Of a stretch of 64,000 nt of DNA, positions 42,867 through 64,000 are shown piece by piece. The position numbers were made by a program, and so were the translations under genes. The notes under the pieces are model-generated. The model was given only the letters and a program-made list of their open reading frames with translations, made no database searches and was not told where the DNA came from. The DNA is from Antedon mediterranea. Taxonomy: Eukaryota; Echinodermata; Crinoidea; Comatulida; Antedonidae. Within the stretch, counting starts at the first letter, position 1; every line of letters begins with the position of its first letter. Location of the stretch: assembly GCF_964355755.1 (NCBI RefSeq), contig NC_092677.1, positions 23,592,101-23,656,100 on the forward strand. The letters run 5' to 3'.

Positions 42867-43081
42867 GCCCGCTTAGCTAAGTTGGTAGGGCATCATTAAC
42901 CTGAGAATCACGGGTTCAAGCTTCCAATATCTTTCAAGTGCATTTTATACCATAGGACAATTGAAATAAAAAAAAATTATGATAATGAAAAAATGGTATT
43001 TAAACAAAGCCCGGTAAGCTCAATCGGTAGAGCATCAGACTTTTAATGTGAGCGTCAAGGGTTGAAGTCCATTATTGGGCG
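42867..43081 (+). pseudogene. Two decayed units at the left array edge
   Basis: The unit at 42867 has lost part of the anticodon arm (CATCATTAACCTGAG). The unit at 43009-43081 keeps CTTTTAA but has G30-G40 opposed, T-loop TTGAAGT and T-stem CCATT. The period is also irregular here. Confidence 0.75.
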
Positions 43082-43184
43082 TATATGTTTTTTGCTTCCA
43101 TTATCTTTCAAGTCAATTTTATACTTTAGGCCAATAGAAATTTAAAAAAAACATCTAAGAATGAGAACAAGGTATTTATATGAA

Positions 43185-43257
43185 GCCCGGTTAGCTCAGT
43201 AGGTAGAGCATCAGACTTTTAATCTGAGGGTCAAGGGTTCAAATCCCTTATTGGGCG
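43185..43257 (+). tRNA. trnK(uuu): tRNA-Lys (UUU), array unit
   Basis: First sound unit of the array. D-loop AGTAGGTA, T-loop TTCAAAT, T5 stop. Confidence 0.85.
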
Positions 43258-43534
43258 TATTTGTTTTTGCTTCCATTATCTTTCAAGTCTATTTTATACT
43301 TTAGGCCAATTGAAATAAAACAAACGTCTAAGAATAAGAACATGGCTTTTATGTGAAGCCCGGTTAGCTCACTTGGTAGAGCATCAGAGTTTTAATCTGA
43401 GGGTCAAGGGTTCAAGTCCCTTATTGGACGTGTTTGTTTTTTGCTTCCATTATCTTTGAAGTTAATTTTATACTTTAGGCCAATAGAAATTTTTAAGAAA
43501 AAGTCTAAGAATGAGAACAAGTTGTTTATATGAA

Positions 43535-43607
43535 GCCCGGTTAGCTCAGTTGGTAGAGCATCAGACTTTGAATGTGATGGTCAAGGGTTCAAGTCCCTTA
43601 TTGGGCG
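43535..43607 (+). pseudogene. Array unit with anticodon UUG
   Basis: Loop CTTTGAA would read Gln CAA, but the anticodon stem has G30-G40 opposed and the variable arm is changed (TGGTC). Probably a decayed Lys gene. Confidence 0.65.
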
Positions 43608-43685
43608 TATATGTTTTTTGCTTCCACTATCTTTGAAGTCAATTTTATACTTCAGGCCAGAATGAGAACAAGGTATTTTTATGAA

Positions 43686-43777
43686 CCCCGGTTAGCTCAG
43701 TAGGTAGAGCATCAGACTTTTAATCTGACGGTCAAGGGTTAAAGCCCGGTCAAGGGTTAAAGCCCGTTATTGGGCGT
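43686..43777 (+). pseudogene. Array unit with duplicated T-arm segment
   Basis: G1 is C, and an 18-nt segment GGTCAAGGGTTAAAGCCC is present twice in a row, which destroys the T-arm. Confidence 0.8.
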
Positions 43778-44768
43778 ACTCCTTTTTTGCTTCCATTATC
43801 GTTCAAGTCAATTTTATTCTTTAGGCCAATAGAAATAAAAAAAAAAAAAACGTTTAAGAATGAGAACAAGGTATTTATATGAAGCCCGCTTAGCTCAGTT
43901 GGTAGAGCTTCAGACTTTTAATCTGAGGGTCAAGAGTTCAAGTCCCTTATTGGGCGTATTTGTTTTTTGCTTCCATTATCTTTCAAGTCAATTTTATACT
44001 TTAGGCCAATTGAAATTAAAAAAAAACGTCTAAGAATGAGAACAAGGTAGTTATATGAAGCCCGGTTAGCTCAGTTGGTAGAGCATCAGACTTTTAATCT
44101 GAGGGTCAAGGGTTCAAATCCCTTATTGAGCGTATATGTTTTTTGCTTCCATTATTCTTTGAAGTCAATTTTATACTTTAGGCCAATTGAAATTTTAAAA
44201 AAAAACGTCTAAGAATGAGAACAAGGTATTTATATGAAGCCCGGTTAGCTCAGTTGGTAGAGCATAAGACTTTTAATCTGAAGGTCAAGGGTTCAAATCC
44301 CTTATTGGGCTTTTTTCGAGTTTTGCTTCCATTATCGTACAAGTCAATTTTATACTCCAGGCCAATTGAAATAAAACAAACTTCTAAGAATGAGAATAAT
44401 GTATTTATATGAAGCTCGGTTAGCTCAGTTGGTAGCGCAAAAGACTTTTAATCTGAGGTCAAGGATTAAAGCCCGTTATTTGGCGTATTCCTTTTTTGCT
44501 CCCATTATCGTTCAAGTCAATTTTATACTTTAGGCCAATAGAAATAAAAAAAAACCGTCTAAGAATGAGAACAAGGTATTTATATGAAGCCCGGTTAGCT
44601 CAGTTGGTAGAGATCAGACTTTTAATCTGAGGGTCAAGGGTTCAAGTCCCTTATTGGGCGTACAGTATTTGTTTTTTGCCTCCATTATCTTTCAAGTCAA
44701 TTTTATACTTTAGGCCAATTGAAATTTCAAATAAACGTCTAAGAATGAGAACAAGGTAGTTATATGAA

Positions 44769-44841
44769 GCCCGGTTAGCTCAGTTGGTAGAGCATCAGAC
44801 TTTTAATCTGAGGGTCAAGGGTTCAAGTCCCTTATTGGGCG
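44769..44841 (+). tRNA. trnK(uuu): tRNA-Lys (UUU), array unit
   Basis: Consensus cloverleaf, but the usual T6 stop is broken to TTCTTT; the next T4 is about 40 nt further on. Confidence 0.83.
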
Positions 44842-45117
44842 TATATGTTCTTTGCTTCCATTATCTTTGAAGTCAATTTTATACTTCAGGCCAATAAAAA
44901 TATAAAAAAAACGTCTAAGAATGAGAACAATGTAATTATATGAAGCCCGGTTAGCTCAGTAGGTAGAGCCTCAAACTTTTAATCTGATTGTCAAGGGTTC
45001 AAATCCCTTATTGGGCGTATTCGTTTTTGCTTCCATTATCTTTCAAGTCTATTTTATACTTTAGGCCAATTGAAATAAAACAAATGTCTAAGAATAAGAA
45101 CATGGCTTTTATATAAA

Positions 45118-45190
45118 GCCCGGTTAGCTCAGTTGGTAGAGCATCAGACTTTTAATCTGAGGGTGAGGGGTTCAAGTCCCTTATTGGGCG
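45118..45190 (+). tRNA. trnK(uuu): tRNA-Lys (UUU), array unit
   Basis: T-stem AGGGG against CCCTT with one G-U pair. T5 stop. Confidence 0.83.
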
Positions 45191-46168
45191 TATTTGTTTT
45201 TGCTTCCATTATCTTTGAAGTCAATTTTATACTTTAGGCCAATAGAAATTTAAAAAAAACGTCTAAGAATGAGAACAAGGTGTTTATATGAAGCCCGGTT
45301 AGCTCAGTTGGTAGAGCATCAGACTTTTAATCTGAGGGTCAAGGGTTTAAATCCCTTATTGGGCGTGTATGTTTTTTGCTTCCATTATCTTTGAAGTCAA
45401 TTTTATACTTTAGGCGAATAGAAATTTAAAAAAAACGTCTAAGAATGAGAACAAGGTATTTATTTGAAGCCCGGTTACCTCAGTTGGTAGAGCATCAGAC
45501 TTTTAATCTGAGGGTAAAGGGTTCAAATCCCTTATTGGGCTTTTTTTCGAGTTTTGCTTCCATTATCGTACAAGTCAATTTTATACTCCAGGCCAATTGA
45601 AATAAAACAAACTTCTAAGAATGAGAATAATGTATTTATATGAAGCTCGGTTAGCTCAGTTGGTAGCGCAAAAGACTTTTAATCTGAGGTCAAGGATTAA
45701 AGCCCGTTATTTGGCATATTCCTTTTTTGCTCCCATTATCGTTCAAGTCAATTTTTTATACTTTAGGCCAATTGAAATAACAAACTTCTAAGAATGAGAA
45801 CAAGGTATTTATATGAGGCTCGGTTAGCTCAGTTGGTAGCGCAAAAGACTTTTAATCTGAGGTCAAGGGTTAAAGCCCGTTATTCGGCGTATTCCTTTTT
45901 GGCTTCCATTATTGTTCAAGTCAATTTTATACTTTAGGCCAATAGAAATAAAAAAAAACCGTCTAAGAATGAGAACAAGGTATTTATATGAAGCCCGGTT
46001 AGCTCAGTTGGTAGAGCATCAGACGTTTAATCTGGGGGTCAAGGGTTCAAATCCCTTAATGGGCGTATTTGTTTTTGCTTCCATTATCTTTGAAGTCAAT
46101 TTTATACTTTAGTCCAATAGAAATTTAAAAAAAAACGTCTAAGAATGAGAACAAGGTATTCATATGAA

Positions 46169-46241
46169 GCCCGGTTAGCTCAGTTGGTAGAGCATCAGAC
46201 TTTTAATCTGAGGGTCAAGGGTTCAAGTCCCTTATTGGGCG
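46169..46241 (+). tRNA. trnK(uuu): tRNA-Lys (UUU), array unit
   Basis: Matches the gene at 7-79 in every stem and loop. T6 stop. Confidence 0.87.
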
Positions 46242-46345
46242 TATTTGTTTTTTGCTTCCATTATCTTTCAAGGTAATTTTATACTTTAGGCCAATTGAAA
46301 TTAAAAAAAAAACGTCTAAGAATGAGAACAAGGTGATAATATGAA

Positions 46346-46418
46346 GCCCGGTTAGCTCATTTGGTAGAGCATCAGACTTTTAATCTGAGGGTCAAGGGTT
46401 CAAATCCCTTATTGGGCG
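46346..46418 (+). tRNA. trnK(uuu): tRNA-Lys (UUU), array unit
   Basis: D-loop ATTTGGTA, otherwise consensus; preceded by GTGATAATATGAA instead of the usual leader end. Confidence 0.84.
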
Positions 46419-46872
46419 TATATGTTTTTTGCTTCCATTATCTTTGAAGTCAATTTTATACTTTAAGCGAATAGAAATTTAAAAAAAACGTCTAAGAATG
46501 AGAACAAGGTATTTATATGAAGCCCGGTTACCTCAGTTGGTAGAGCATCAGACTTTTAATCTGAGGGTAAAGGGTTCAAATCCCTTATTGGGCTTATTGG
46601 AGTTTTGCTTCCATTATCGTTCAAGTCAATTTTATACTTTAGGCCAATTGAAATAAAACAAACTTCTAAGAATGAGAACAAGGTATTTATATGAGGCTCG
46701 GTTAGCTCAGTTGGTAGCGCAAAAGACTTTTAATCTGAGGTCAAGGGTTAAAGCCCATTATTCGGCGTATTCCTTTTTGGCTTCCATTATCGTCCAAGTC
46801 AATTTTATACCTTAGGCCAATAGAAGTAAAAAAAAAAAACGTCTAAGAATGAGAACAAGGTATTTATATGAA

Positions 46873-46945
46873 GCCCGGTTAGCTCAGTTGGTAGAGCATC
46901 AGACTTTTAATCTGAGGGTCAAGGGTTCAAGTCCCTTATTGGGCG
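46873..46945 (+). tRNA. trnK(uuu): tRNA-Lys (UUU), array unit
   Basis: Consensus, T-loop TTCAAGT, T6 stop. Confidence 0.87.
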
Positions 46946-47047
46946 TATTTGTTTTTTGCTTCCATTATCTTTCAAGTCAATTTTATACTTTAGGCCAATT
47001 GAAATTTAAAAAAACGTCTAAGAATGAGAACAAGGTGTTTAAATGAA

Positions 47048-47120
47048 GCCCGGTTAGCTCAGTTGGTGGAGCATCAGACTTTTAATCTGAGGGTCAAGGG
47101 TTCAAATCCCTTATTGGGCG
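47048..47120 (+). tRNA. trnK(uuu): tRNA-Lys (UUU), array unit
   Basis: D-loop ends GGTG rather than GGTA (A21 changed). T-loop TTCAAAT. Confidence 0.8.
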
Positions 47121-47926
47121 TGTATGTTTTTTGCTTCCATTATCTTTCAAGGTAATTTTATACTTTAGGCCAATTGAAATTTAAAAAAAACGTCTAAGAA
47201 TGAGAACAAGGTGATAATATGAAGACCGGTTAGCTCATTTGGTAGAGCATCAGACTTTTAATCTGAGGGTCAAGGGTTCAAATCCCTTATTGGGCGTATA
47301 TGTTTTTTGCTTCCATTATCTTTGAAGTCAATTTTATACTTTAGGCGAATAGAAATTTAAAAAAAACGTCTAAGAATGAGAACAATGTATTTATATGAAG
47401 CCCGGTTACCTCAGTTGGTAGAGCATCAGACTTTTAATCTGAGGGTAAAGGGTTCAAATCCCTTATTGGGCTTATTGGAGTTTTGCTTCCATTATCGTTC
47501 AAGTCAATTTTATACTTTAGGCCAATTGAAATAAAACAAACTTCTAAGAATGAGAACAAGGTATTTATATGAGGCTCGGTTAGCTCAGTTGGTAGCGCAA
47601 AAGACTTTTAATCTGAGGTCAAGGGTTAAAGCCCATTATTCGGCGTATTCCTTTTTGGCTTCCATTATCGTCCAAGTCAATTTTATACCTTAGGCCAATA
47701 GAAGTAAAAAAAAAAAACGTCTAAGAATGAGAACAAGGTATTTATATGAAGCCCGGTTAGCTCAGTTGGTAGAGCATCAGACTTTTAATCTGAGGGTCAA
47801 GGGTTCAAGTCCCTTATTGGGGGTATTTGTTTTTTGCTTCCATTATCTTTCAAGTCAATTTTATACTTTAGGCCAATTGAAATTTAAAAAAAACGTCTAA
47901 GAATGAGAACAAGGTGTTTATATGAA

Positions 47927-47999
47927 GCCCGGTTAGCTCAGTTGGTAGAGCATCAGACTTTTAATCTGAGGGTCAAGGGTTCAAATCTCTTATTGGGCG
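47927..47999 (+). tRNA. trnK(uuu): tRNA-Lys (UUU), array unit
   Basis: T-stem 3' strand CTCTT gives one G-U pair. Followed by GTGTATG and T6. Confidence 0.82.
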
Positions 48000-48452
48000 T
48001 GTATGTTTTTTGCTTCCATTATCTTTGAAGTCAATTTTATACTTTAGGCGAATAGAAATTTAAAAAAAACGTCTAAAAATGAGAACAAGGTATTTATATG
48101 AAGCCCGGTTACGTCAGTTGGTAGAGCATCAGACTTTTAATCTGAGGGTCAAGGGTTCAAATCCCTTATTGGGCTTTTTTCGAGTTTTGCTTCCATTATC
48201 GTACAAGTCAATTTTATACTCCAGGCCAATTGAAATAAAACAAACTTCTAAGAATGAGAATAACGTATTTATATGAAGCTCGGTTAGCTCAGTTGGTAGC
48301 GCAAAAGACTTTTAATCTGAGGTCAAGGATTAAAGCCCGTTATTTGGCGTATTCCTTTTTTGCTCCCATTATCGTTCAAGTCAATTTTATACTTTAGGCC
48401 AATAGAAATAAAAAAAAACCGTCTAAGAATGAGAACAAGGTATTTATATGAA

Positions 48453-48525
48453 GCCCGGTTAGCTCAGTTGGTAGAGCATCAGACTTTTAATCTGAGGGTC
48501 AAGGGTTCAAGTCCCTTATTGGGCG
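48453..48525 (+). tRNA. trnK(uuu): tRNA-Lys (UUU), array unit
   Basis: Consensus, follows a subfamily C unit in the block repeated at 51080 and 54413. Confidence 0.87.
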
Positions 48526-48628
48526 TATTTGTTTTTTGCCTCCATTATCTTTAAAGTCAATTTTATACTTTAGGCCAATTGAAATTTCAAATAAACGTCT
48601 AAGAATGAGAACAAGGTAGTTATATGAA

Positions 48629-48701
48629 GCCCGGTTAGCTCAGTTGGTAGAGCATCAGACTTTTAATCTGAGGGTCAAGGGTTCAAGTCTCTTATTGGGC
48701 G
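48629..48701 (+). tRNA. trnK(uuu): tRNA-Lys (UUU), array unit
   Basis: T-stem with one G-U pair (CTCTT). T6 stop. Confidence 0.83.
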
Positions 48702-48976
48702 TATATGTTTTTTGCTTCCATTATCTTTGAAGTCAATTTTATACTTCAGGCCAATAAAAATATAAAAAAAACGTCTAAGAATGAGAACAATGTAATTATA
48801 TGAAGCCCGGTTAGCTCAGTGGGTAGAGCCTCAAACTTTTAATCTGAGGGTCAAGGGTTCAAATCCCTTATTGGGCGTATTCGTTTTTGCTTCCATTATC
48901 TTTCAAGTCTATTTTATACTTTAGGCCAATTGAAATAAAACAAACGTCTAAGAATAAGAACATGGCTTTATATAAA

Positions 48977-49049
48977 GCCCGGTTAGCTCAGTTGGTAGAG
49001 CATCAGACTTTTAATCTGAGGGTCAAGGGTTCAAGTCCCTTATTGGGCG
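48977..49049 (+). tRNA. trnK(uuu): tRNA-Lys (UUU), array unit
   Basis: Leader variant GAACATGGCTTTATATAAA; T5 stop. Confidence 0.86.
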
Positions 49050-49152
49050 TATTTGTTTTTGCTTCCATTATCTTTGAAGTCAATTTTATACTTTAGGCCA
49101 ATAGAAATTTAAAAAAAAACGTCTAAGAATGAGAACAAGGTATTCATATGAA

Positions 49153-49225
49153 GCCCGGTTAGCTCAGTTGGTAGAGCATCAGACTTTTAATCTGAGGGTC
49201 AAGGGTTCAAGTCCCTTATTGGGCG
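49153..49225 (+). tRNA. trnK(uuu): tRNA-Lys (UUU), array unit
   Basis: Consensus; leader ends TATTCATATGAA. Confidence 0.87.
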
Positions 49226-49328
49226 TATTTGTTTTTTGCTTCCATTATCTTTCAAGGTAATTTTATACTTTAGGCCAATTGAAATTTTAAAAAAACGTCT
49301 AAGAATGAGAACAAGGTGATAATATGAA

Positions 49329-49401
49329 GCCCGGTTAGCTCATTTGGTAGAGCATCAGACTTTTAATCTGAGGGTCAAGGGTTCAAATCCCTTATTGGGC
49401 T
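49329..49401 (+). tRNA. trnK(uuu): tRNA-Lys (UUU), array unit, U discriminator
   Basis: All stems pair, D-loop ATTTGGTA, but base 73 is T and only T4 follows. Confidence 0.7.
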
Positions 49402-49677
49402 TATTGGAGTTTTGCTTCCATTATCGTTCAAGTCAATTTTATACTTTAGGCCAATTGAAATAAAACAAACTTCTAAGAATGAGAACAAGGTATTTATATG
49501 AGGCTCGGTTAGCTCAGTTGGTAGCGCAAAAGACTTTTAATCTGAGGTCAAGGGTTAAAGCCCGTTATTCGGCGTATTCCTTTTTGGCTTCCATTATCGT
49601 CCAAGTCAATTTTATACATTAGGCCAATAGAAGTAAAAAAAAAACGTCTAAGAATGAGAACAAGGTATTTATATGAA

Positions 49678-49750
49678 GCCCGGTTAGCTCAGTTGGTAGA
49701 GCATCAGACTTTTAATCTGAGGGTCAAGGGTTCAAGTCCCTTATTGGGCG
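49678..49750 (+). tRNA. trnK(uuu): tRNA-Lys (UUU), array unit
   Basis: Consensus, T6 stop. Confidence 0.87.
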
Positions 49751-49853
49751 TATTTGTTTTTTGCTTCCATTATCTTTCAAGTCAATTTTATACTTTAGGC
49801 CAATTGAAATTTAAAAAAAACGTCTAAGAATGAGAACAAGGTGTTTATATGAA

Positions 49854-49926
49854 GCCCGGTTAGCTCAGTTGGTAGAGCATCAGACTTTTAATCTGAGGGT
49901 CAAGGGTTCAAATCCCTTATTGGGCG
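49854..49926 (+). tRNA. trnK(uuu): tRNA-Lys (UUU), array unit
   Basis: T-loop TTCAAAT, then GTGTATG and T6. It opens the block repeated at 53187. Confidence 0.86.
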
Positions 49927-50729
49927 TGTATGTTTTTTGCTTCCATTATCTTTGAAGTCAATTTTATACTTTAGGCGAATAGAAATTTAAAAAAAACGTC
50001 TAAGAATGAGAACAAGGTATTTATATGAAGCCCGGTTACCTCAGTTGGTAGAGCATCAGACTTTTAATCTGAGGGTAAAAGGTTCAAATCCCTTATTGGG
50101 CTTTTTTTCGAGTTTTGCTTCCATTATCGTACAAGTCAATTTTATACTCCAGGCCAATTGAAATAAAACAAACTTCTAAGAATGAGAATAATGTATTTAT
50201 ATGAAGCTCGGTTAGCTCAGTTGGTAGCGCAAAAGACTTTTAATCTGAGGTCAAGGATTAAAGCCTGTGATTTGGCATATTCCTTTTTTGCTCCCATTAT
50301 CGTTCAAGTCAATTTTTTATACTTTAGGCCAATTGAAATAACAAACTTCTAAGAATGAGAACAAGGTATTTATATGAGGCTCGGTTAGCTCAGTTGGTAG
50401 CGCAAAAGACTTTTAATCTGAGGTCAAGGGTTAAAGCCCGTTATTCGGCGTATTCCTTTTTGGCTTCCATTATTGTTCAAGTAAATTTTATACTTTAGGC
50501 CAATAGAAATAAAAAAAAACCGTCTAAGAATGAGAACAAGGTATTTATATGAAGCCCGGTTAGCTCAGTTGGTAGAGCATCAGACGTTTAATCTGGGGGT
50601 CAAGGGTTCAAGTCCCTTAATGGGCGTATTTGTTTTTTGCCTCCATTATCTTTCAAGTTAATTTTATACTTTAGGCCAATTGAAATTTCAAATAAACGTC
50701 TAAGAATGAGAACAAGGTAGTTATATGAA

Positions 50730-50802
50730 GCCCGGTTAGCTCAGTTGGTAGAGCATCAGACTTTTAATCTGAGGGTCAAGGGTTCAAATCCCTTATTGGG
50801 CT
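50730..50802 (+). tRNA. trnK(uuu): tRNA-Lys (UUU), array unit, U discriminator
   Basis: Stems intact. The T6 stop begins immediately at base 73, so 3' trailer length differs from other units. Confidence 0.7.
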
Positions 50803-51079
50803 TTTTTCGAGTTTTGCTTCCATTATCGTATAAGTCAATTTTATACTCCAGGCCAATTGAAATAAAACAAACTTCTAAGAATGAGAATAATGTATTTATA
50901 TGAAGCTCGGTTAGCTCAGTTGGTAGCGCAAAAGACTTTTAATCTGAGGTCAAGGATTAAAGCCCGTTATTTGGCGTATTCCTTTTTTGCTCCCATTATC
51001 GTTCAAGTCAATTTTATACTTTAGGCCAATACAAATAAAAAAAAACCGTCTAAGAATGAGAACAAGGTATTTATATGAA

Positions 51080-51152
51080 GCCCGGTTAGCTCAGTTGGTA
51101 GAGCATCAGACTTTTAATCTGAGGGTCAAGGGTTCAAGTCCCTTATTGGGCG
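51080..51152 (+). tRNA. trnK(uuu): tRNA-Lys (UUU), array unit
   Basis: Consensus, T6 stop. Confidence 0.87.
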
Positions 51153-52136
51153 TATTTGTTTTTTGCCTCCATTATCTTTAAAGTCAATTTTATACTTTAG
51201 GCCAATTGAAATTTCAAATAAACGTCTAAGAATGAGAACAAGGTAGTTATATGAAGCCCGGTTAGCTCAGTTGGTAGAGCATCAGACTTTTAATCTGAGG
51301 GTCAAGGGTTTAAGTCCCTTATTGGGCTTATATGTTTTTTGCTTCCATTATCTTTGAAGTCAATTTTATACTTCAGGCCAATAAAAATATAAAAAAAACG
51401 TCTAAGAATGAGAACAATGTAATTATATGAAGCCCGGTTAGCTCAGTAGGTAGAGCCTCAAACTTTTTATCTGAGGGTCAAGGGTTCAAATCCCTTATTG
51501 GGCGTATTCGTTTTTGCTTCCATTATCTTTCAAGTCTATTTTATACTTTAGGCCAATTGAAATAAAAAAAACGTCTAAGAATGAGAACAAGGTATTTATA
51601 TGAAGCCCGGTTAGCTCAGTTGGTAGAGCATCAGACGTTTAATCTGGGGGTCAAGGGTTCAAGTCCCTTAATGGGCGTATTTGTTTTTTGCCTCCATTAT
51701 CTTTCAAGTTAATTTTATACTTTAGGCCAATTGAAATTTCAAATAAACGTCTAAGAATGAGAACAAGGTAGTTATATGAAGCCCGGTTAGCTCAGTTGGT
51801 ATAGTAGAGCATCAGACTTTTAATCTGAGGGTCAAGGGTTCAAATCCCTTATTGGGCTTTTTTCGAGTTTTGCTTCCATTATCGTATAAGTCAATTTTAT
51901 ACTCCAGGCCAATTGAAATAAAACAAACTTCTAAGATTGAGAATAATGTATTTATATGAAGCTCGGTTAGCTCAGTTGGTAGCGCAAAAGACTTTTAATC
52001 TGAGGTCAAGGATTAAAGCCCGTTATTTGGCGTATTCCTTTTTTGCTCCCATTATCGTTCAAGTCAATTTTATACTTTAGGCCAATACAAATTAAAAAAA
52101 AACCGTCTAAGAATGAGAACAAGGTATTTATATGAA

Positions 52137-52209
52137 GCCCGGTTAGCTCAGTTGGTAGAGCATCAGACTTTTAATCTGAGGGTCAAGGGTTCAAGTCCCT
52201 TATTGGGCG
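52137..52209 (+). tRNA. trnK(uuu): tRNA-Lys (UUU), array unit
   Basis: Consensus, T6 stop; near-identical flanks to 51080. Confidence 0.87.
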
Positions 52210-52661
52210 TATTTGTTTTTTGCCTCCATTATCTTTAAAGTCAATTTTATACTTTAGGCCAATTGAAATTTCAAATAAACGTCTAAGAATGAGAACAAGG
52301 TAATTATATGAAGCCCGGTTAGCTCAGTTGGTAGAGCATCAGACTTTTAATCTGAGGGTCAAGGGTTTAAGTCCCTTATTGGGCTTATATGTTTTTTGCT
52401 TCCATTATCTTTGAAGTCAATTTTATACTTCAGGCCAATAAAAATATAAAAAAAACGTCTAAGAATGAAAACAATGTAATTATATGAAGCCCGGTTAGCT
52501 CAGTAGGTAGAGTCTCAAACTTTTTATCTGAGGGTCAAGGGTTCAAATCCCTTATTGGGCGTATTCGTTTTTGCTCCCATTATCTTTCAAGTCTATTTTA
52601 TACTTTAGGCCAATTGAAATAAAAAAAACGTCTAAGAATAAGAACATGGCTTTTATATAAA

Positions 52662-52734
52662 GCCCGGTTAGCTCAGTTGGTAGAGCATCAGACTTTTAAT
52701 CTGAGGGTAAAGGGTTCAAATCCCTTATTGGGCT
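52662..52734 (+). tRNA. trnK(uuu): tRNA-Lys (UUU), array unit, U discriminator
   Basis: 5' half like the consensus, 3' half like subfamily B (GGGTA, T73): a recombinant unit. Stems pair. Confidence 0.65.
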
Positions 52735-53010
52735 TATTGGAGTTTTGCTTCCATTATCGTTCAAGTCAATTTTATACTTTAGGCCAATTGAAATAAAACA
52801 AACTTCTAAGAATGAGAACAAGGTATTTATATGAGGCTCGGTTAGCTCAGTTGGTAGCGCAAAAGACTTTTAATCTGAGGTCAAGGGTTAAAGCCCGTTA
52901 TTCGGCGTATTCCTTTTTGGCTTCCATTATCGTCCAAGTCAATTTTATACATTAGGCCAATAGAAGTAAAAAAAAAACGTCTAAGAATGAGAACAAGGTA
53001 TTTATATGAA

Positions 53011-53083
53011 GCCCGGTTAGCTCAGTTGGTAGAGCATCAGACTTTTAATCTGAGGGTCAAGGGTTCAAGTCCCTTATTGGGCG
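53011..53083 (+). tRNA. trnK(uuu): tRNA-Lys (UUU), array unit
   Basis: Consensus, T6 stop. Confidence 0.87.
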
Positions 53084-53259: not shown

Positions 53260-54412
53260 TGTATGTTTTTTGCTTCCATTATCTTTGAAGTCAATTTTAT
53301 ACTTTAGGCGAATAGAAATTTAAAAAAAACGTCTAAGAATGAGAACAAGGTATTTATATGAAGCCCGGTTACCTCAGTTGGTAGAGCATCAGACTTTTAA
53401 TCTGAGGGTAAAAGGTTCAAATCCCTTATTGGGCTTTTTTTCGAGTTTTGCTTCCATTATCGTACAAGTCAATTTTATACTCCAGGCCAATTGAAATAAA
53501 ACAAACTTCTAAGAATGAGAATAATGTATTTATATGAAGCTCGGTTAGCTCAGTCGGTAGCGCAAAAGACTTTTAATCTGAGGTCAAGGATTAAAGCCCG
53601 TGATTTGGCATATTCCTTTTTTGCTCCCATTATCGTTCAAGTCAATTTTTTATACTTTAGGCCAATTGAAATAACAAACTTCTAAGAATGAGAACAAGGT
53701 ATTTATATGAGGCTCGGTTAGCTCAGTTGGTAGCGCAAAAGACTTTTAATCTGAGGTCAAGGGTTAAAGCCCGTTATTCGGCGTATTCCTTTTTGGCTTC
53801 CATTATTGTTCAAGTAAATTTTATACTTTAGGCCAATAGAAATAAAAAAAAACCGTCTAAGAATGAGAACAAGGTATTTATATGAAGCCCGGTTAGCTCA
53901 GTTGGTAGAGCATCAGACGTTTAATCTGGGGGTCAAGGGTTCAAGTCCCTTAATGGGCGTATTTGTTTTTTGCCTCCATTATCTTTCAAGTTAATTTTAT
54001 ACTTTAGGCCAATTGAAATTTCAAATAAACGTCTAAGAATGAGAACAAGGTAGTTATATGAAGCCCGGTAAGCTCAGTTGGTAGAGCATCAGACTTTTAA
54101 TCTGAGGGTCAAGGGTTTAAGTCCCTTATTGGGCTTTTTCCAGGTTTGGCTTCCATTATCGTATAAGTCAATTTTATACTCCAGGCCAATTGAAATAAAA
54201 CAAACTTCTAAGAATGAGAATAATGTATTTATATGAAGCTCGGTTAGCTCAGTTGGTAGCGCAAAAGACTTTTAATCTGAGGTCAAGGATTAAAGCCCGT
54301 TATTTGGCGTATTCCTTTTTTGCTCCCATTATCGTTCAAGTCAATTTTATACTTTAGGCCAATACAAATAAAAAAAAACCATCTAAGAATGAGAACAAGG
54401 TATTTATATGAA

Positions 54413-54485
54413 GCCCGGTTAGCTCAGTTGGTAGAGCATCAGACTTTTAATCTGAGGGTCAAGGGTTCAAGTCCCTTATTGGGCT
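54413..54485 (+). tRNA. trnK(uuu): tRNA-Lys (UUU), array unit, U discriminator
   Basis: Stems consensus, T-loop TTCAAGT, base 73 T, then a T6 stop. Confidence 0.7.
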
Positions 54486-54937
54486 TATATGTTTTTTGCT
54501 TCCATTATCTTTGAAGTCAATTTTATACTTCAGGCCAATTGAAATTTCAAATAAACGTCTAAGAATGAGAACAAGGTAGTTATATGAAGCCCGGTTAGCT
54601 CAGTTGGTAGAGCATCAGACTTTTAATCTGAGGGTCAAGGGTTTAAGTCCCTTATTGGGCTTATATGTTTTTGTCTTCCATTATCTTTGAAGTCAATTTT
54701 ATACTTCAGGCCAATAAAAATATAAAAAAAACGTCTAAGAATGAGAACAATGTAATTATATGAAGCCCGGTTAGCTCAGTAGGTAGAGCCTCAAACTTTT
54801 TATCTGAGGGTCAAGGGTTCAAATCCCTTATTGGGCGTATTCGTTTTTGCTTCCATTATCTTTCAAGTCTATTTTATACTTTAGGCCAATTGAAATAAAA
54901 AAAACGTCTAAGAATAAGAACATGGCTTTTATATAAA

Positions 54938-55010
54938 GCCCGGTTAGCTCAGTTGGTAGAGCATCAGACTTTTAATCTGAGGGTAAAGGGTTCAAATCCC
55001 TTATTGGGCT
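54938..55010 (+). tRNA. trnK(uuu): tRNA-Lys (UUU), array unit, U discriminator
   Basis: Twin of the recombinant unit at 52662. Confidence 0.65.
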
Positions 55011-55286
55011 TATTGGAGTTTTGCTTCCATTATCGTTCAAGTCAATTTTATACTTTAGGCCAATTGAAATAAAACAAACTTCTAAGAATGAGAACAAGGT
55101 ATTTATATGAGGCTCGGTTAGCTCAGTTGGTAGCGCAAAAGACTTTTAATCTGAGGTCAAGGGTTAAAGCCCGTTATTCGGCGTATTCCTTTTTGGCTTC
55201 CATTATCGTCCAAGTCAATTTTATACCTTAGGCCAATAGAAGTAAAAAAAAAACATCTAAGAATGAGAACAAGGTATTTATATGAA

Positions 55287-55359
55287 GCCCGGTTAGCTCA
55301 GTTGGTAGAGCATCAGACTTTTAATCTGAGGGTCAAGGGTTCAAGTCCCTTATTGGGCG
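55287..55359 (+). tRNA. trnK(uuu): tRNA-Lys (UUU), array unit
   Basis: Consensus, T6 stop. Confidence 0.87.
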
Positions 55360-56164
55360 TATTTGTTTTTTGCTTCCATTATCTTTTAAGTCAATTTTAT
55401 ACTTTAGGCCAATTGAAATTAAAAAAAAACGTCTAAGAATGAGAACAAGGTGTTTATATGAAGCCCGGTTAGCTCAGTTGGTAGAGCATCAGACTTTTAA
55501 CATGAGGGTCAAGGGTTCAAATCCCTTAATGGGCGTATATGTTTTTTGCTTCCATTATCTTTGAAGTCAATTTTATACTTTAGGCGAATAGAAATTAAAA
55601 AAAAACGTCTAAGAATGAGAACAAGGTATTTATATGAAGCCCGGTTACCTCAGTTGGTAGAGCATCAGACTTTTAATCTGGAGGTAAAGGGTTCAAATCC
55701 CTTATTGGGCTTATTCGAGTTTTGCTTCCATTATCGTTCAAGTCAATTTTATACTTTAGGCCAATTGAAATAAAACAAACTTCTAAGAATGAGAACAAGG
55801 TATTTATATGAGGCTCGGTTAGCTCAGTTGGTAGCGCAAAAGACTTTTAATCTGAGGTCAAGGGTTAAAGCCTGTTATTCGGCGTATTCCTTTTTGGCTT
55901 CCATTATCGTCCAAGTCAATTTTATACCTTAGGCCAATTGAAGTAGAAAAAAAAACGTCTAAGAATGAGAACAAGGTATTTATATGAAGCCCGGTTAGCT
56001 CAGTTGGTAGAGCTTCAGACTTTTAATCTGAGGTCAAGGGTTAAAGCCCGGTATTGGGCGTATTCCTTTTTTGCTTCCATTATCGTTCAAGTCAATTTTA
56101 TTCTTTACGCCAATAGAAATAAAAAAAAAAACGTCTAAGAATGAGAACAAGATATTTATATGAA

Positions 56165-56237
56165 GCCCGGTTAGCTCAGTTGGTAGAGCATCAGACTCTT
56201 AATCTGAGGGTCAAGGGTTCAAGTCCCTTAATGGGCG
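56165..56237 (+). tRNA. Array unit with anticodon CUU (Lys AAG)
   Basis: Loop CTCTTAA gives anticodon CTT, still a lysine anticodon. The acceptor ends AATGGGC, so pair 6-67 is G-A. T6 stop follows. Function possible but weakened. Confidence 0.6.
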
Positions 56238-56341
56238 TATTTGTTTTTTGCTTCCATTATCTTTGAAGTCAATTTTATACTTTAGGCCAATAGAAATTTA
56301 AAAAAAAACGTGTAAGAATGAGAACAGGGTATTTATATGAA

Positions 56342-56414
56342 GCCCGGTTAGCTCAGTTGGTAGAGCATCAGACTTTTAATCTGAGGGTCAAGGGTTCAAG
56401 TCCCTTATTGGGCG
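56342..56414 (+). tRNA. trnK(uuu): tRNA-Lys (UUU), array unit
   Basis: Consensus; T5 stop followed by AGC. Confidence 0.86.
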
Positions 56415-56866
56415 TATTTGTTTTTAGCTTCCATTATCTTTCAAGTCAATTTTATACTTTAGGCCAATTGAAATTTAAAAAAAACGTCTAAGAATGAGAA
56501 CAAGGTAGTTATTTGAAGCCCGGTTAGCTCAGTTGGTAGAGCATCAGACTTTTAAGCTGAGGGTCAAGATTTCAAGTCCCTTATTGGGCGTATTTGTTTT
56601 TTGCTTCCATTATCTTTCAAGTCAATTTTATACTTTAGGCCAATTGAAATTTAAAAAAAACGTCTAAGAATGAGAACAAGGTATTTATATGAAGCCCGGT
56701 TAGCTCAGTTGGTAGAGCATCAGACTTTTAAGCTGAGTGTCAAGGGTTCAAATCTCTTAATGGGCGTATTCGTTTTTGCTTCCATTATCTTTCAAGTCTA
56801 TTTTTTACTTTAGGCCAATTGAAATAAAACAAACGTCTAAGAATAAGAACATGGCTTTTATATGAA

Positions 56867-56939
56867 GCCCGGTTAGCTCAGTTGGTAGAGCATCAGACTT
56901 TTAATCTGAGGGTCAAGGGTTCAAGTTCCTTATTGGGCG
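56867..56939 (+). tRNA. trnK(uuu): tRNA-Lys (UUU), array unit
   Basis: T-stem 3' strand TCCTT gives a G53-U61 pair. Confidence 0.8.
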
Positions 56940-57392
56940 TATTTGTTTTTTGCTTCCATTATCTTTGAAGTTAATTTTATACTTTAGGCCAATAAAATTA
57001 TTAAGAAAAAGTCTAAGAATGAGAACAAGTTGTTTATATGAAGCCCGGTAAGCTCAGTTGGTAGAGCATCAGATTTTTAATCTGAGGGTCAAGGGTTCAA
57101 ATACCTTATTGGGCGTATTCATTTTTGCTTCCATTATCTTTCAAGTCTATTTTATACTTTAGGCCAATTGAAATAAAACAAACGTCTACGAATAAGAACA
57201 TGGCTTTTATATGAAGCCCGGTTAGCTCAGTTGGTAGAGCATCAGACTTTTAAACTGAGGGTCAAGGGTTCAAGTCCCTTAATGGGCGTATTTGTTTTTT
57301 GCTTCCATTATCTTTGAAGTCAATTTTATACTTTAGGCCAATTGAAATTTAAAAAAAAACGTCTAAGACTGAGAACAAGGTATTTATATGAA

Positions 57393-57465
57393 GCCCGGTT
57401 AGCTCAGTTGGTAGAGCATCAGACTTTTAATCTGAGGGTCAAGGGTTCAAATCCCTTATTGGGCG
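57393..57465 (+). tRNA. trnK(uuu): tRNA-Lys (UUU), array unit
   Basis: Consensus with T-loop TTCAAAT, T6 stop. Confidence 0.87.
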
Positions 57466-57917
57466 TATATGTTTTTTGCTTCCATTATCTTTGAAGTCAA
57501 TTTTATACTTTAGGCCAATAGAAATTTAAAAAAAACGTCTAAGAATGAGAACAAGGTATTTATATGAAGCCCGGTTACCTCAGTTGGTAGAGCATCAGAC
57601 TTTTAATCTGAGGGTAAAGGGTTCAAATCCTTTATTGGGCTTATTCGAGTTTTGCTTACATTATCGTTCAAGTCAATTTTATACTTTAGGCCAATTGAAA
57701 TAAAACAAACTTCTGAGAATGAGAACAAGGTATTTATATGAGGCTCGGTTAGCTCAGTTGGTAGCGCAAAAGACTTTTAATCTGAGGTCAAGGGTTAAAA
57801 GCCGTTATTCGGCGTATTCCTTTTTGGCTTCCATTATCGTTGAGGTCAATTTTATACCTTAGGCCTATAGAAGTTAAAAAAAAACGTCTAAGAATGAGAA
57901 CAAGGTATTTATATGAA

Positions 57918-57990
57918 GCCCGGTTAGCTCAGTTGGTAGAGCATCAGACTTTTAATCTGAGGGTCAAGGGTTCAAATTCCTTATTGGGCG
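57918..57990 (+). tRNA. trnK(uuu): tRNA-Lys (UUU), array unit
   Basis: T-stem 3' strand TCCTT; T5 stop. Confidence 0.8.
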
Positions 57991-58441
57991 TATTCGTTTT
58001 TGCTTCCATTATCTTTCAAGTCTATTTTATACTTTAGGCCAATTGAAATAAATTAACGTCTAAGAATGAGAACAAGATATTTGAATGAAGCCCGGTTAGC
58101 TCAGTTGGTAGAGCATCAGACTTTTAATCTGAGGGTCAAGGATTAAAGCCCGTTATTTGGCGTATTCCTTTTTTGCTCCCATTATCTTTCAAGTCAATTT
58201 TATACTTTAGGCCAATTGAAATTTAAAAAAAATGTCTAAGAATGAGAACAAGGTAGTTATATGAAGCCCGGTTAGCTCAGTTGGTAGAGCATCAGACTTT
58301 TAAACCGAGGGTCAAGGGTTCAAGTCCCTTAATGGGCGTATTTGTTTTTTGCTTCCATTATCTTTGAAGTCAATTTTATACTTTAGGCCAATAGAAATTT
58401 AAAAAAAACGTCTACGAATGAGAACAAGGTATTTATATGAA

Positions 58442-58514
58442 GCCCGGTTAGCTCAGTTGGTAGAGCATCAGACTTTTAATCTGAGGGTCAAGGGTTCAAG
58501 TCCCTTATTGGGCG
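58442..58514 (+). tRNA. trnK(uuu): tRNA-Lys (UUU), array unit
   Basis: Consensus, T6 stop. Confidence 0.87.
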
Positions 58515-59316
58515 TATTTGTTTTTTGCTTCCATTATCTTTCAAGTCAATTTTATACTTTAGGCCAATTGAAATTTAAAAAAAACTTCTAAGAATGAGAA
58601 CAAGGTAGTTATATGAAGCCCGGTTAGCTCAGTTGGTAGAGCATCAGACTTTTAAGCTGAGGGTCAAGATTTCAAGTCCCTTATTGGGCGTATTTGTTTT
58701 TTGCTTCCATTATCTTTCAAGTCAATTTTATACTTTAGGCCAATTGAAATTTTAAAAAAACGTCTAAGAATGAGAACAAGGTATTTATATGAAGCCCGGT
58801 TAGCTCAGTTGGTAGAGCATCAGACTTTTAAGCTTAGGGTCAAGGGTTCAAATCTCTTAATGGGCGTATTCGTTTTTGCTTCCATTATCTTTCAAGTCTA
58901 TTTTTTACTTTAGGCCAATTGAAATAAAACAAACTTCTAAGAATGAGAACAATGTATTTATATGAAGCTCGGTTAGCTCAGTTGGTAGCGCAAAAGACTT
59001 TTAATCTGAGGTCAAGGATTAAAGCCCGTTATTTGGCGTATTCCTTTTTTGCTCCCATTATCGTTCAAGTCAATTTTATACTTAAAGCCAATAGAAATAA
59101 AAAAAAAAACCGTCTAAGAATGAGAACAAGGTATTTATATGAAGCCCGGTTAGCTCAGTAGGTAGAGCATCAGACTTTTAATCTGAGGGTCAAGGGTTCA
59201 AATCCCTAATTGGGCGTATTCGTTTTTGCTTCCATTATCTTTCAAGTCTATTTTATACTTTAGGCCAATTGAAATAAAACAAACGTCTAGGAATAAGAAC
59301 ATGGCTTTTATATGAA

Positions 59317-59389
59317 GCCCGGTTAGCTCAGTTGGTAGAGCATCAGACTTTTAATCTGAGGGTCAAGGGTTCAAGTCCTTTATTGGGCG
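59317..59389 (+). tRNA. trnK(uuu): tRNA-Lys (UUU), array unit
   Basis: T-stem 3' strand CCTTT with one G-U pair. Confidence 0.82.
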
Positions 59390-59492
59390 TATTTGTTTTT
59401 TGCTTCCATTATCTTTGAAGTTAATTTTATACTTTTGGCCAATAAAATTATTAAGAAAAAGTCTAAGAATGAGAACAAGTTGTTTATATGAA

Positions 59493-59565
59493 GCCCGGTT
59501 AGCTCAGTTGGTAGAGCATCAGACTTTTAATCTGAGGGTCAAGGGTTCAAATCCCTTATTGGGCG
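59493..59565 (+). tRNA. trnK(uuu): tRNA-Lys (UUU), array unit
   Basis: Consensus, T-loop TTCAAAT, T5 stop. Confidence 0.87.
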
Positions 59566-59842
59566 TATTCGTTTTTGCTTCCATTATCTTTCAAGTCTAT
59601 TTTATACTTTAGGCCAATTGAAATAAAACAAACGTCTAAGAATAAGAACATGGCTTTTATATGAAGCCCGGTTAGCTCAGTTGGTAGAGCATCAGACTTT
59701 TAAACTGAGGGTCAAGGGTTCAAGTCCCTTAATGGGCGTATTTGTTTTTTGCTTCCATTATCTTTGAAGTCAATTTCATACTTTAGGCCAATTGAAATTT
59801 AAAAAAAAACGTCTAAGAATGAGAACAAGGTATTTATATGAA

Positions 59843-59915
59843 GCCCGGTTAGCTCAGTTGGTAGAGCATCAGACTTTTAATCTGAGGGTCAAGGGTTCAA
59901 ATCCCTTATTGGGCG
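59843..59915 (+). tRNA. trnK(uuu): tRNA-Lys (UUU), array unit
   Basis: Twin of 57393 in the block shifted by 2450 bp. Confidence 0.87.
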
Positions 59916-60287
59916 TATATGTTTTTTGCTTCCATTATCTTTGAAGTCAATTTTATACTTTAGGCCAATAGAAATTTTAAAAAAACGTCTAAGAATGAGA
60001 ACAAGGTATTTATATGAAGCCCGGTTACCTCAGTTGGTAGAGCATCAGACTTTTAATCTGAGGGTAAAGGGTTCAAATCCTTTATTGGGCTTATTCGAGT
60101 TTTGCTTACATTATCGTTCAAGTCAATTTTATACTTTAGGCCAATTGAAATAAAACAAACTTCTGAGAATGAGAACAAGGTATTTATATGAGGCTCGGTT
60201 AGCTCAGTTGGTAGCACAAAAGACTTTTAATCTGAGGTCAAAGGTTAAAGCCCGTTATTCGGCGTATTCCTTTTTGGCTTCCATTAT

Positions 60288-60440
60288 TATTATTATTATT
60301 ATTTATTGCCAAAAACCAGTTACAAACAAACAAAACACAGAAACTAAGAGAGTAGGCAGGAACCTAAAAGTGAACCTAATCACTATAACAAGAGTTCAGG
60401 TTCCGTACTCCCAAAGTAACAACAATGATATAAAATAAAC
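60288..60440 (-). mobile_element. 153-bp retroposon insertion in an array spacer
   Basis: Splits the spacer after the unit at 60193. TTAT at 60284-60287 and 60441-60444 may be the target duplication. On the minus strand it ends TTGGCAATA followed by an AAT-repeat tail, typical of a LINE or SINE 3' end. It is the only foreign insertion I see in the array. Confidence 0.7.
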
Positions 60441-60524
60441 TTATCGTTCAAGTCAATTTTATACCTTAGGCCAATAGAAGTTAAAAAAAAACGTCTAAGA
60501 ATGAGAACAAGGTATTTATATGAA

Positions 60525-60597
60525 GCCCGGTTAGCTCAGTTGGTAGAGCATCAGACTTTTAATCTGAGGGTCAAGGGTTCAAATCCCTTATTGGGCG
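60525..60597 (+). tRNA. trnK(uuu): tRNA-Lys (UUU), array unit
   Basis: Consensus, T5 stop; first unit after the retroposon insertion. Confidence 0.87.
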
Positions 60598-61575
60598 TAT
60601 TCGTTTTTGCTTCCATTATCTTTCAAGTCTATTTTATACTTTAGGCCAATTGAAATAAAAAAACGTCTAAGAATGAGAACAAGATATTTATATGAAGCCC
60701 GGTTAGCTCAGTTGGTAGAGCATCATACTTTTAATCTGAGGGTCAAGGATTAAAGCCCGTTATTTGGCGTATTCATTTTTTGCTCCCATTATCTTTCAAG
60801 TCAATTTTATACTTTAGGCCAATTGAAATTTAAAAAAAATGTCTAAGAATGAGAACAAGGTAGTTATATGAAGCCCGGTTAGCTCAGTTGGTAGAGCATC
60901 AGACTTTTAAACCGAGGGTCAAGGGTTAAAGTCCTTTAATGGGCGTATTTGTTTTTTGCTTCCATTATCTTTGAAGTCAATTTTATACTTTAGGCCAATA
61001 GAAATTTAAAAAAAACGTCTACGAATGAGAACAAGGTATTTATATGAAGCCCGGTTAGCTCAGTTGGTAGAGCATCAGACTTTTAATCAGAGGGTCAAGG
61101 GTTCAAGTCCCTTATTGGGCGTATTTGTTTTTTGCTTCCATTATCTTTCAAGTCAATTTGATACTTTAGGCCAATTGAAATTTAAAAAAAACATCTAAGA
61201 ATGAGAACAAGGTATTTATATGAAGCCCGGTTAGCTCAGTTGGTAGAGCATCAGACTTTTAAGCTGAGGGTCAAGGTTTCAAGTCCCTTATTGGGCGTAT
61301 TGTTTTTTTGCTTCCATTATCTTTCAAGTCAATTTTATTCTTTAGGCCAATTGAAATTTAAAAAAAACGTCTAAGAATGAGAACAATGTATTTATATGAA
61401 GCTCGGTTAGCTCAGTTGGTAGCGCAAAAGACTTTTAATCTGAGGTCAAGGATTAAAGCCCGTTATTTGGCGTATTCCTTTTTTGCTCCCATTATCGTTC
61501 AAGTCAATTTTATACTTTAGGCCAATAGAAATAAAAAAAAACCGTCTAAGAATGAGAACAAGGTATTTATATGAA

Positions 61576-61648
61576 GCCCGGTTAGCTCAGTAGGTAGAGC
61601 ATCAGACTTTTAATCTGAGGGTCAAGGGTTCAAATCCCTTATTGGGCG
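61576..61648 (+). tRNA. trnK(uuu): tRNA-Lys (UUU), array unit
   Basis: D-loop AGTAGGTA, T5 stop. Confidence 0.85.
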
Positions 61649-61748
61649 TATTCGTTTTTGCTTCTATTATCTTTCAAGTCTATTTTATACTTTAGGCCAA
61701 TTGAAATAAAACAAACCTCTAAGAATAAGAACATGGCTTTTATATGAA

Positions 61749-61821
61749 GCCCGGTTAGCTCAGTTGGTAGAGCATCAGACTTTTAATCTGAGGGTCAAGG
61801 GTTCAAGCCCCTTATTGGGCG
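61749..61821 (+). tRNA. trnK(uuu): tRNA-Lys (UUU), array unit
   Basis: T-loop TTCAAGC (base 60 changed), stems intact, T6 stop. Confidence 0.82.
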
Positions 61822-62273
61822 TATTTCTTTTTTGCTTCCATTATCTTTGAAGTCAATTTTATACTTTAGGCCAATAGAAATTTAAAAAAAACGTCTAAGA
61901 ATGAGAACAAGGTATTTATATGAAGCCCGGTTACCTCAGTTGGTAGAGCATCAGACTTTTAATCTGAGGGTAAAGGGTTCAAATCCTTTATTGGGCTTAT
62001 TCGAGTTTTGCTTCAATTATCGTTCAAGTCAATTTTATACTTTAGGCCAATTGAAATAAAACAAACTTCTGAGAATGAGAACAAGGTATTTATATGAGGC
62101 TCGGTTAGCTCAGTTGGTAGCGCAAAAGACTTTTAATCTGAGGTCAAGGGTTAAAGCCCGTTATTCGGCGTATTCCTTTTTGGCTTCCATTATCGTTCAA
62201 GTCAATTTTATACCTTAGGCCAATAGAAGTTAAAAAAAAACGTGTAAGAATGAGAACAAGGTATTTATATGAA

Positions 62274-62346
62274 GCCCGGTTAGCTCAGTTGGTAGAGCAT
62301 CAGACTTTTAATCTGAGGGTCAAGGGTTCAAATCCCTTATTGGGCG
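62274..62346 (+). tRNA. trnK(uuu): tRNA-Lys (UUU), array unit
   Basis: Consensus, T5 stop. Confidence 0.87.
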
Positions 62347-62445
62347 TATTCGTTTTTGCTTCCATTATCTTTCAAGTCTATTTTATTCTTTAGGCCAATT
62401 GAAATAAAAAAACGTCTAAGAATGAGAACAAGATATTTATATGAA

Positions 62446-62518
62446 GCCCGGTTAGCTCAGTTGGTAGAGCATCAGACTTTTAATCTGAGTGTCAAGGGTT
62501 CAAGTCCCTTATTGGGCG
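62446..62518 (+). tRNA. trnK(uuu): tRNA-Lys (UUU), array unit
   Basis: Variable region GTGTC instead of GGGTC, stems intact. Confidence 0.82.
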
Positions 62519-63321
62519 TATTTGTTTTTTGCTTCCATTATCTTTCAAGTCAATTTTATACTTTAGGCCAATTGAAATTTTAAAAAAAAGTCTAAGAATG
62601 AGAACAAGGTATTTATATGAAGCCCGGTTAGCCCAGTTGGTGGAGCATCAGACTTTTAATCTGAGGGTCAAGGGTTCAAGTCCCTTAATGGGCGTATTTG
62701 TTTTTTGCTTCCATTATCTTTCAAGTCAATTTTATACTTTAGGCCAATAGAAATTTAAAAAAACGTCTAAGAATGAGAACAATGTATTTATATGAAGCCC
62801 GGTTACCTCAGTTGGTAGAGCATCAGTCTTTTAATCTGAGGGTAAAGGGTTCAAATCCCTTATTGGGCTTATTCGAGTTTTGCTTCCATTATCGTTCAAG
62901 TCAATTTTATACTTTAGGCCAATTGAAATAAAACAAACTTCTAAGAATGAGAACAAGGTATTTATATGAGGCTCGGTTAGCTCAGTTGGTAGCGCAAAAG
63001 ACTTTTAATCTGAGGTCAAGGGTTAAAGCCCGTTATTCGGCGTATTCCTTTTTGGCTTCCATTATCGTTCAAGTCAATTTTATACCTTAGGCCAATAGAA
63101 GTAAAAAAAAAAACGTCTAAGACTGAGAACAAGGTATTTATATGAAGCCCGGTTAGTTCAGTTGGTAGAGCATCAGACTTTTAATCTGAGGTCAAGGGTT
63201 AAAGCCCGTTATTGGGCGTATTCCTTTTTTGCTTCCATTATCGTTCAAGTCAATTTTATTCTTTAGGCCAATAGAAATAAAAAAAAAACGTCTAAGAATG
63301 AGAACAAGATATTTATATGAA

Positions 63322-63394
63322 GCCCGGTTAGCTCAGTTGGTAGAGCATCAGACTTTTAATCTGAGGGTCAAGGGTTCAAGTCCCTTATTGGGCG
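63322..63394 (+). tRNA. trnK(uuu): tRNA-Lys (UUU), array unit
   Basis: Consensus, T6 stop; last sound unit in the window. Confidence 0.87.
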
Positions 63395-64000
63395 TATTTG
63401 TTTTTTGCTTCCATTATTTTTCAAGTCAATTTTATACTTTAGGCCAATTGAAATTTAAAAAAAATGTCTAAGAATGAGAACAAGGTAGTTATATGAAGCC
63501 CGGTTAGCGCAGTTGGTAGAGCATCAGACGTTTAAACTGAGGGTCAAGGGTTCAAGTCCCTTAATGGGCGTATTTGTTTTTGCTTCCATTATCTTTCAAG
63601 TCTATTTTATACTTTAGGCCAATTGAAATAAAAAAACGTCTAAGAATGAGAACAAGATATTTATATGAAGCCCGGTTAGCTCAGTTGGTAGAGCATCAGA
63701 CTTTTAATCTGAGGGTCAAGGGTTCAAGTCCCTTAATGGGCATATTTGTTTTTTGCTTCCATTATCTTTCAAGTCAATTTTATACTTTAGGCCAATTGAA
63801 ATTTAAAAAAAAACGTCTAAGAATGAGAACAAGGTAGTTATATGAAGCCCGGTTACCTCAGTTGGTAGAGCATCAGACTTTTAATCTGAGGGTAAAGGGT
63901 TCAAATCCTTTATTAGGCTTATTCGAGTTTTGCTTCAATTATCGTTCAAGTCAATTTTATACTTTAGGCCAATTGAAATAAAACAAACTTCTGAGAATGA

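Follow-up and report, generated by a model that had tools for sequence, protein, structure and literature searches.

Alpha satellite DNA is organised in higher-order repeats, with a monomer of about nucleosome length and duplication of whole blocks. Clusters of tRNA genes have been described in several lineages. Those of teleosts and Nematostella are reported to reach fifty and more members (PMC2888827), plant clusters are given as holding two to 110 genes, with 27 tRNA-Pro genes and 27 Tyr-Tyr-Ser repeats in Arabidopsis (PMC12652284), and one account of zebrafish presents the tRNA genes of chromosome 4 as hypothetically maternal (PMC11075544). The locus described here, in the crinoid Antedon mediterranea, is an array of 229 head-to-tail, same-strand tRNA-Lys(UUU) units with a period of about 176 bp. 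It was analysed from a window of 64,000 bp (NCBI RefSeq assembly GCF_964355755.1, contig NC_092677.1, positions 23,592,101 to 23,656,100, forward strand) joined to its flanks; coordinates are counted from the first base of the window, and the genome searched comprised 18 contigs (354.4 Mb), of which C8 holds the window. The sequence suggests that unequal crossing-over probably turned a tRNA-Lys(UUU) gene into the repeating unit of a local satellite, and that a minority of the copies are probably still transcribed.

Results

Extent and composition of the array

The initial annotation, made from the window alone, had proposed about 120 same-strand units at a 176-bp period, continuing past the window edge. 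An anchor scan placed the first unit at 42867 and the last at 82917, so that the array extends from 42867 to about 83066 (~40,200 bp, 40.2 kb) and is flanked on both sides by other sequence. The number proposed was correct, as 120 of the 229 units start within the window (42867..64000, plus strand). The continuation was also real, but it is not endless: the array stops about 19 kb beyond the window edge. Tandem Repeats Finder (TRF) reported a 176-bp period at 42920-60287 (99.1 copies, 87% match) and again at 60441-64000 (20.4 copies). ARAGORN called 99 tRNAs in the window, 93 in the array and 6 outside it, and Rfam RF00005 gave 103 matches at the gathering score, 96 of them in the array. The Infernal-type tRNA model that had been called for was also run on the right flank. 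In the next two 10-kb loci, L031 and L032, it gave 90 matches together, and ARAGORN found 46 and 43 tRNAs, respectively. About 186 of the 229 units were thus recognised by the covariance model. Chance or misread sequence as the source of the array was ruled out by the tRNA models together with TRF. With 229 units, the array readily qualifies as a tandem tRNA cluster in the sense of several genes less than 1 kb apart.

Unit length was 172-177 bp for 222 of the 229 units. The first unit (42867..43008, plus strand, 142 bp), read directly from the sequence, is shortened and degenerate and forms the left edge of the array. A single unit exceeds 200 bp (60193..60524, plus strand, 332 bp); it carries a spacer insertion of about 156 bp beside an ATT run, possibly a transposon fragment. 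Loss of a unit at 60.2-60.5 kb was considered and ruled out, because the 332-bp step is one unit with this insertion. The unit alignment comprised 226 units and excluded three of odd length, at 42867, 43535 and 60193.

Higher-order blocks and exact repeats

Unit labelling resolved blocks of 24 units in the right half of the array, arranged as X1-Y1-X2-X3-Y2 between 61049 and 82040. X1 occupies 61049-65244, its start (61049..64000, plus strand) lying within the window, and the remaining four blocks follow. X1 and X3 differ at one aligned column, X1 and X2 at six, and X2 and X3 at five; X2 has five columns of its own relative to both other copies. Y1 and Y2 differ at 13 columns, all within the last two units, and X1 and Y1 differ at 376. 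The X-Y-X-X-Y series therefore has the multi-monomer blocks of high identity that characterise a satellite with higher-order repeats. The longest exact repeats measure 6564 bp and are spaced 12,594 bp apart, and another of 2124 bp recurs at a distance of 4197 bp. Exact repeats are shorter in the left half than in the right, and one of 845 bp recurs there at 3333 bp (19 units). Among the 229 units there are 142 distinct sequences. The mixture of sound and broken copies had been taken to fit birth-and-death evolution. This was half right, as the duplication of 24-unit blocks and the exact repeats of up to 6564 bp indicate unequal exchange and concerted evolution.

Condition of the tRNA copies

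The array is built on a single isoacceptor. The anticodon is TTT in 223 of the 226 aligned units, CTT (also Lys) in two and TCT in one; ARAGORN reads TTG in the unit at 43535, outside the alignment. No stem mismatch was found in 82 of the aligned units, and 75 were strictly intact tRNA-Lys(UUU) genes, defined as having no mismatch, no gap, anticodon TTT, a T loop beginning TTCAA, and a downstream run of at least four T. The tRNA at 43185..43257 (plus strand; Rfam 73.5 bits, also called by ARAGORN) is an intact example. Clearly broken units, with a gap, at least three stem mismatches or loss of C56, numbered 71. Many of these damaged copies have been amplified: a dead T loop, TTAAAGC, which breaks the B box, is common to 50 aligned units, and 49 have a one-base gap. 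A member of this dead class at 45645..45716 (plus strand) has both the one-base deletion and the TTAAAGC loop and was called by neither ARAGORN nor Rfam. The commonest 73-base tRNA sequence in the array is in fact a broken one, with 22 copies against 19 of the intact consensus.

A run of at least four T lies within 30 nt downstream of the tRNA in 220 of the 226 units. When a strict A box and a strict B box, both patterns following the consensus, were required together with the T run, 112 units had all three of these RNA polymerase III (Pol III) elements. The sequence thus bore out what the initial annotation had said of the units: they have their own Pol III stops and a conserved leader, and sound copies are mixed with broken ones.

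Sequence variation inside and outside the tRNA

Variants were counted over 136 distinct aligned units, with the leader taken as 27 bases. For the leader, the tRNA and the downstream sequence, respectively, unique variants per site came to 0.52, 0.52 and 0.43, and mean diversity to 0.085, 0.084 and 0.109. The count was repeated after removal of the dead class only (50 units), so that the remaining units were not picked by tRNA quality. The 73 tRNA sites then held 38 unique variants and the 103 remaining sites 44, and the tRNA again showed no shortage (P 0.90). With unique variants equally dense inside and outside the tRNA, the idea that strong purifying selection acts on every copy is unsupported.

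Several results leave room for some constraint. Without the dead class, the tRNA had a mean diversity of 0.058, below that of the leader (0.084) and of the downstream sequence (0.095). At 13 sites regarded as critical in tRNAs generally, ten variants were found, fewer than the density in the spacer would give (Poisson P 0.10, and P 0.16 for unique variants alone), and with the dead class removed the same sites held eight variants, two of them unique (P 0.08 and 0.09). Among the 155 non-broken units, critical variants numbered 3 against 11.9 expected, pair-breaking variants 26 against 38.7, and all tRNA variants 59 against 82.5, in a test biased toward a deficit, as the units were selected for intact tRNAs and the expectation includes a pseudocount. 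The deficit at the critical sites is suggestive only, a scarcity of damaging variants among the good copies is possible but unproven, and any selection on individual copies is weak.

Array and dispersed lysine isodecoders

Within the array, G5 pairs with U68, and both bases are present in all 226 aligned units. Of five dispersed tRNA-Lys(UUU) genes examined, four have C68, three at C8:25.73 Mb and one at C6:17.38 Mb, together with C16 or C17. Because U68 is constant in the array and these four genes have C68, transcripts of the array would be distinguishable from theirs. Two observations count against so simple a picture. The fifth dispersed locus (L042, C8:11.45 Mb) has U68, with six changes from the array consensus, and tRNA-Lys(CUU) showed no split between array and dispersed types. 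A general division of this kind was rejected because four of the six other loci examined share the most frequent Lys(CUU) array sequence, which weighs against a general two-tier system.

A genome-wide search with a 25-base core found 228 forward and 33 reverse places at up to three mismatches, a setting that also admits Lys(CUU) genes; the reversed control found none. Of the 59 exact core matches listed, which are forward places covering the array incompletely, four fall outside the 23.58-23.68 Mb domain. The unit did not resemble a tRNA-derived short interspersed element: among 31 candidates scored, a lower bound as very common words were skipped, near-full-length matches were listed only in the array domain, and listed matches elsewhere hardly extended past the tRNA (at most query 20-119).

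Left flank and likely seed

A family of segmental duplications of about 3.3 kb, bearing the array's tRNA gene singly or in two copies, lies left of the array, from approximately -11.8 kb to +6.8 kb. It contains nine lysine-type tRNA genes, including three pairs spaced 175-178 bp, at -6717/-6540, -3413/-3235 and 6011/6186. The array leader accompanies both members in two of these pairs and the second member only in one. Of 12 left-flank copies, four are identical to the array consensus, and U68 is common to the copies that align without shift. The pair at 6011..6258 (plus strand, ARAGORN), with two tRNA-Lys(UUU) genes 175 bp apart and the array leader on the second, is one such dimer. Dimers of this kind are likely the seed of the array, the direction of change being inferred.

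Other array-type tRNAs occur in the window, all on the plus strand. The tRNA-Lys(UUU) at 7..79 (ARAGORN) has U68 and lies amid the 3.3-kb duplications. The lysine body at 3245..3317 has anticodon TAT, called Ile by ARAGORN, and three further changes, and is a possible anticodon-shift copy. Two tRNA-Lys(UUU) genes are isolated: one at 19220..19292 (ARAGORN), with a single change from the array consensus, and one at 34268..34340, in which A5-U68 replaces the G5-U68 wobble and which has the top Rfam score in the window (74.8).

Other single-isoacceptor arrays

The initial annotation had considered so long an array unusual for one anticodon, a view that has to be tempered, since other such arrays share the genome. 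A tRNA-Cys(GCA) array at C2:14174777-14191557 has 118 anchors at a 137-bp period. Two tRNA-Lys(CUU) arrays have periods of 145-146 bp and spacers of their own. On C3 (8.10 Mb), 34 anchors were found and ARAGORN called 25 genes, of which one is isolated about 2 kb beyond the array and three are read as Stop; on C7 (21.53 Mb), the stretch examined gave 31 anchors and 25 ARAGORN genes. The tRNA-Lys(UUU) array is the largest found but is not unique, in a list that is a lower bound, as 63 of 35763 first-look candidates were scored in the genome-wide Rfam tRNA search. Unique variants per site upstream, in the tRNA and downstream were mixed (1.07, 0.46 and 0.32 for tRNA-Cys; 0.11, 0.18 and 0.11 for Lys(CUU) on C3; 0.48, 0.26 and 0.18 on C7), and variant density in these arrays decides nothing.

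Neighbouring sequences

Frames near the locus encode otopetrin, NACHT and forkhead proteins. The otopetrin frame shows 89% identity over 88% to an Antedon mediterranea protein. Mitochondrial COX1 had no match in the genome searched. A long NACHT-domain frame occupies 27567-30320, and a 187-aa frame with no Pfam match lies just upstream of it. NLR and tRNA genes occur together on zebrafish chromosome 4 in the account cited (PMC11075544); as a parallel, the single NACHT gene beside the array proves nothing. A small acidic minus-strand frame has nine copies, from -11.1 kb to +5.3 kb and near 20, 33 and 36 kb, six of them within the 3.3-kb duplication region. Its product had no Pfam match above the cut-off, and the only relative found was in Anneissia japonica (79% identity over 42% of the query). 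A 12-bp minisatellite of 27.8 copies lies at 14291-14623.

Discussion

We propose that a left-flank dimer expanded through unequal crossing-over or slippage and that repeated exchange would then have homogenised the units. Selection, if any, would act mainly on the number of working copies. The approximately 75 strictly intact genes would be Pol III-competent and, chromatin permitting, could make the U68 isodecoder in bulk, and the few dispersed C68 genes would represent the conserved set. The array behaves as a repeat of genic origin that may still yield a tRNA of its own type.

Of the three readings offered by the initial annotation, a tRNA-born satellite with mostly neutral copies is the best supported, by the equal variant density and the amplified dead class, with the reservation that weak constraint is possible. 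A high-output locus kept by selection, which would supply bulk tRNA-Lys(UUU) to oocytes and early embryos while dispersed C68 genes serve somatic cells, is compatible with a satellite origin and is possible, though not the probable reading. The 75 intact genes, the T-run terminators in 220 units, the constant U68 against C68 in four dispersed genes and the suggestive deficit at critical sites all fit it, as does the account of zebrafish in which the isodecoders of eggs are encoded in highly repetitive regions and those present later by scattered genes (PMC11417395). Against this stand the undiminished density of unique variants across the tRNA as a whole, the amplification of dead copies together with good ones, and the absence of such a split for Lys(CUU). 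The opposite extreme, an inert satellite whose units, all or most of them, are silent and add nothing to the tRNA pool, appears rather unlikely. It would account for the equal density of unique variants inside and outside the tRNA, for the 71 clearly broken units and for dispersed genes of the other, C68 type, but not so readily for the 75 intact genes or for the four left-flank copies identical to the array consensus.

A more specific proposal, still more tentative, is that the satellite might be a germline or maternal source of the G5-U68 lysine isodecoder, with selection on total output instead of on individual copies, beside a small somatic C68 set; the tRNA-Cys and Lys(CUU) arrays would then be parallel cases of a lineage-wide habit. 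It is very improbable that the array is a boundary or structural element, made an insulator or replication-pause region by bound Pol III factors. This idea draws on analogy with a human CTCF-binding tRNA tandem repeat, proposed as a boundary in the source cited (PMC4041453), and no supporting sequence evidence turned up, no CTCF or insulator scan having been made. Equally improbable is false expansion of long exact repeats during assembly. The exact 6564-bp repeat 12.6 kb apart is what such an artefact could produce, and a false copy of one block remains conceivable. However, the 142 distinct unit sequences, the differences between block copies, including the five columns private to X2, and the restriction of the left half to shorter exact repeats argue against it. 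The satellite origin with a transcribed minority remains the reading we prefer.

With both array ends, a probable seed nearby, and perfect and dead copies side by side, a single locus shows steps from gene to satellite. The U68/C68 difference offers a handle on whether the array feeds the tRNA pool, a question beyond computation alone in tRNA-rich genomes. A search of the open PubMed Central literature, by title and start of abstract, returned no crinoid tRNA array and no "tRNA-derived satellite".

Like the teleost and Nematostella clusters, the crinoid array holds many tRNA genes less than 1 kb apart; those of zebrafish and Nematostella are described as mostly heterogeneous pairs, whereas the 229 crinoid units are of a single isoacceptor (PMC2888827). 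Entamoeba also has long tandems of short tRNA-bearing units, but there, according to the account cited, almost all tRNA genes are arrayed and make up more than 10% of the genome, units hold 1 to 5 tRNA genes, and in E. histolytica short tandem repeats lie between the genes (PMC2652664). Plant clusters are similar in arising by tandem duplication, often of one isoacceptor, but are smaller, and higher-order blocks go unmentioned in the available part of the plant account (PMC12652284). The human tRNA variable number tandem repeat at 1q23.3 is likewise a tandem repeat around tRNA genes; its GC-rich unit is given as 7.3 kb, with several tRNA genes and CTCF sites, in 9-43 units (PMC4041453). The crinoid unit, in contrast, has 176 bp and one tRNA. 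Among the tRNA clusters compared, the crinoid array is unusually large, and its most distinctive trait is its higher-order block structure. In its roughly nucleosome-length monomer and its block duplication it recalls alpha satellite, but its monomer is a tRNA gene, and otopetrin, NACHT and forkhead frames are found nearby, with no centromeric status implied for the locus.

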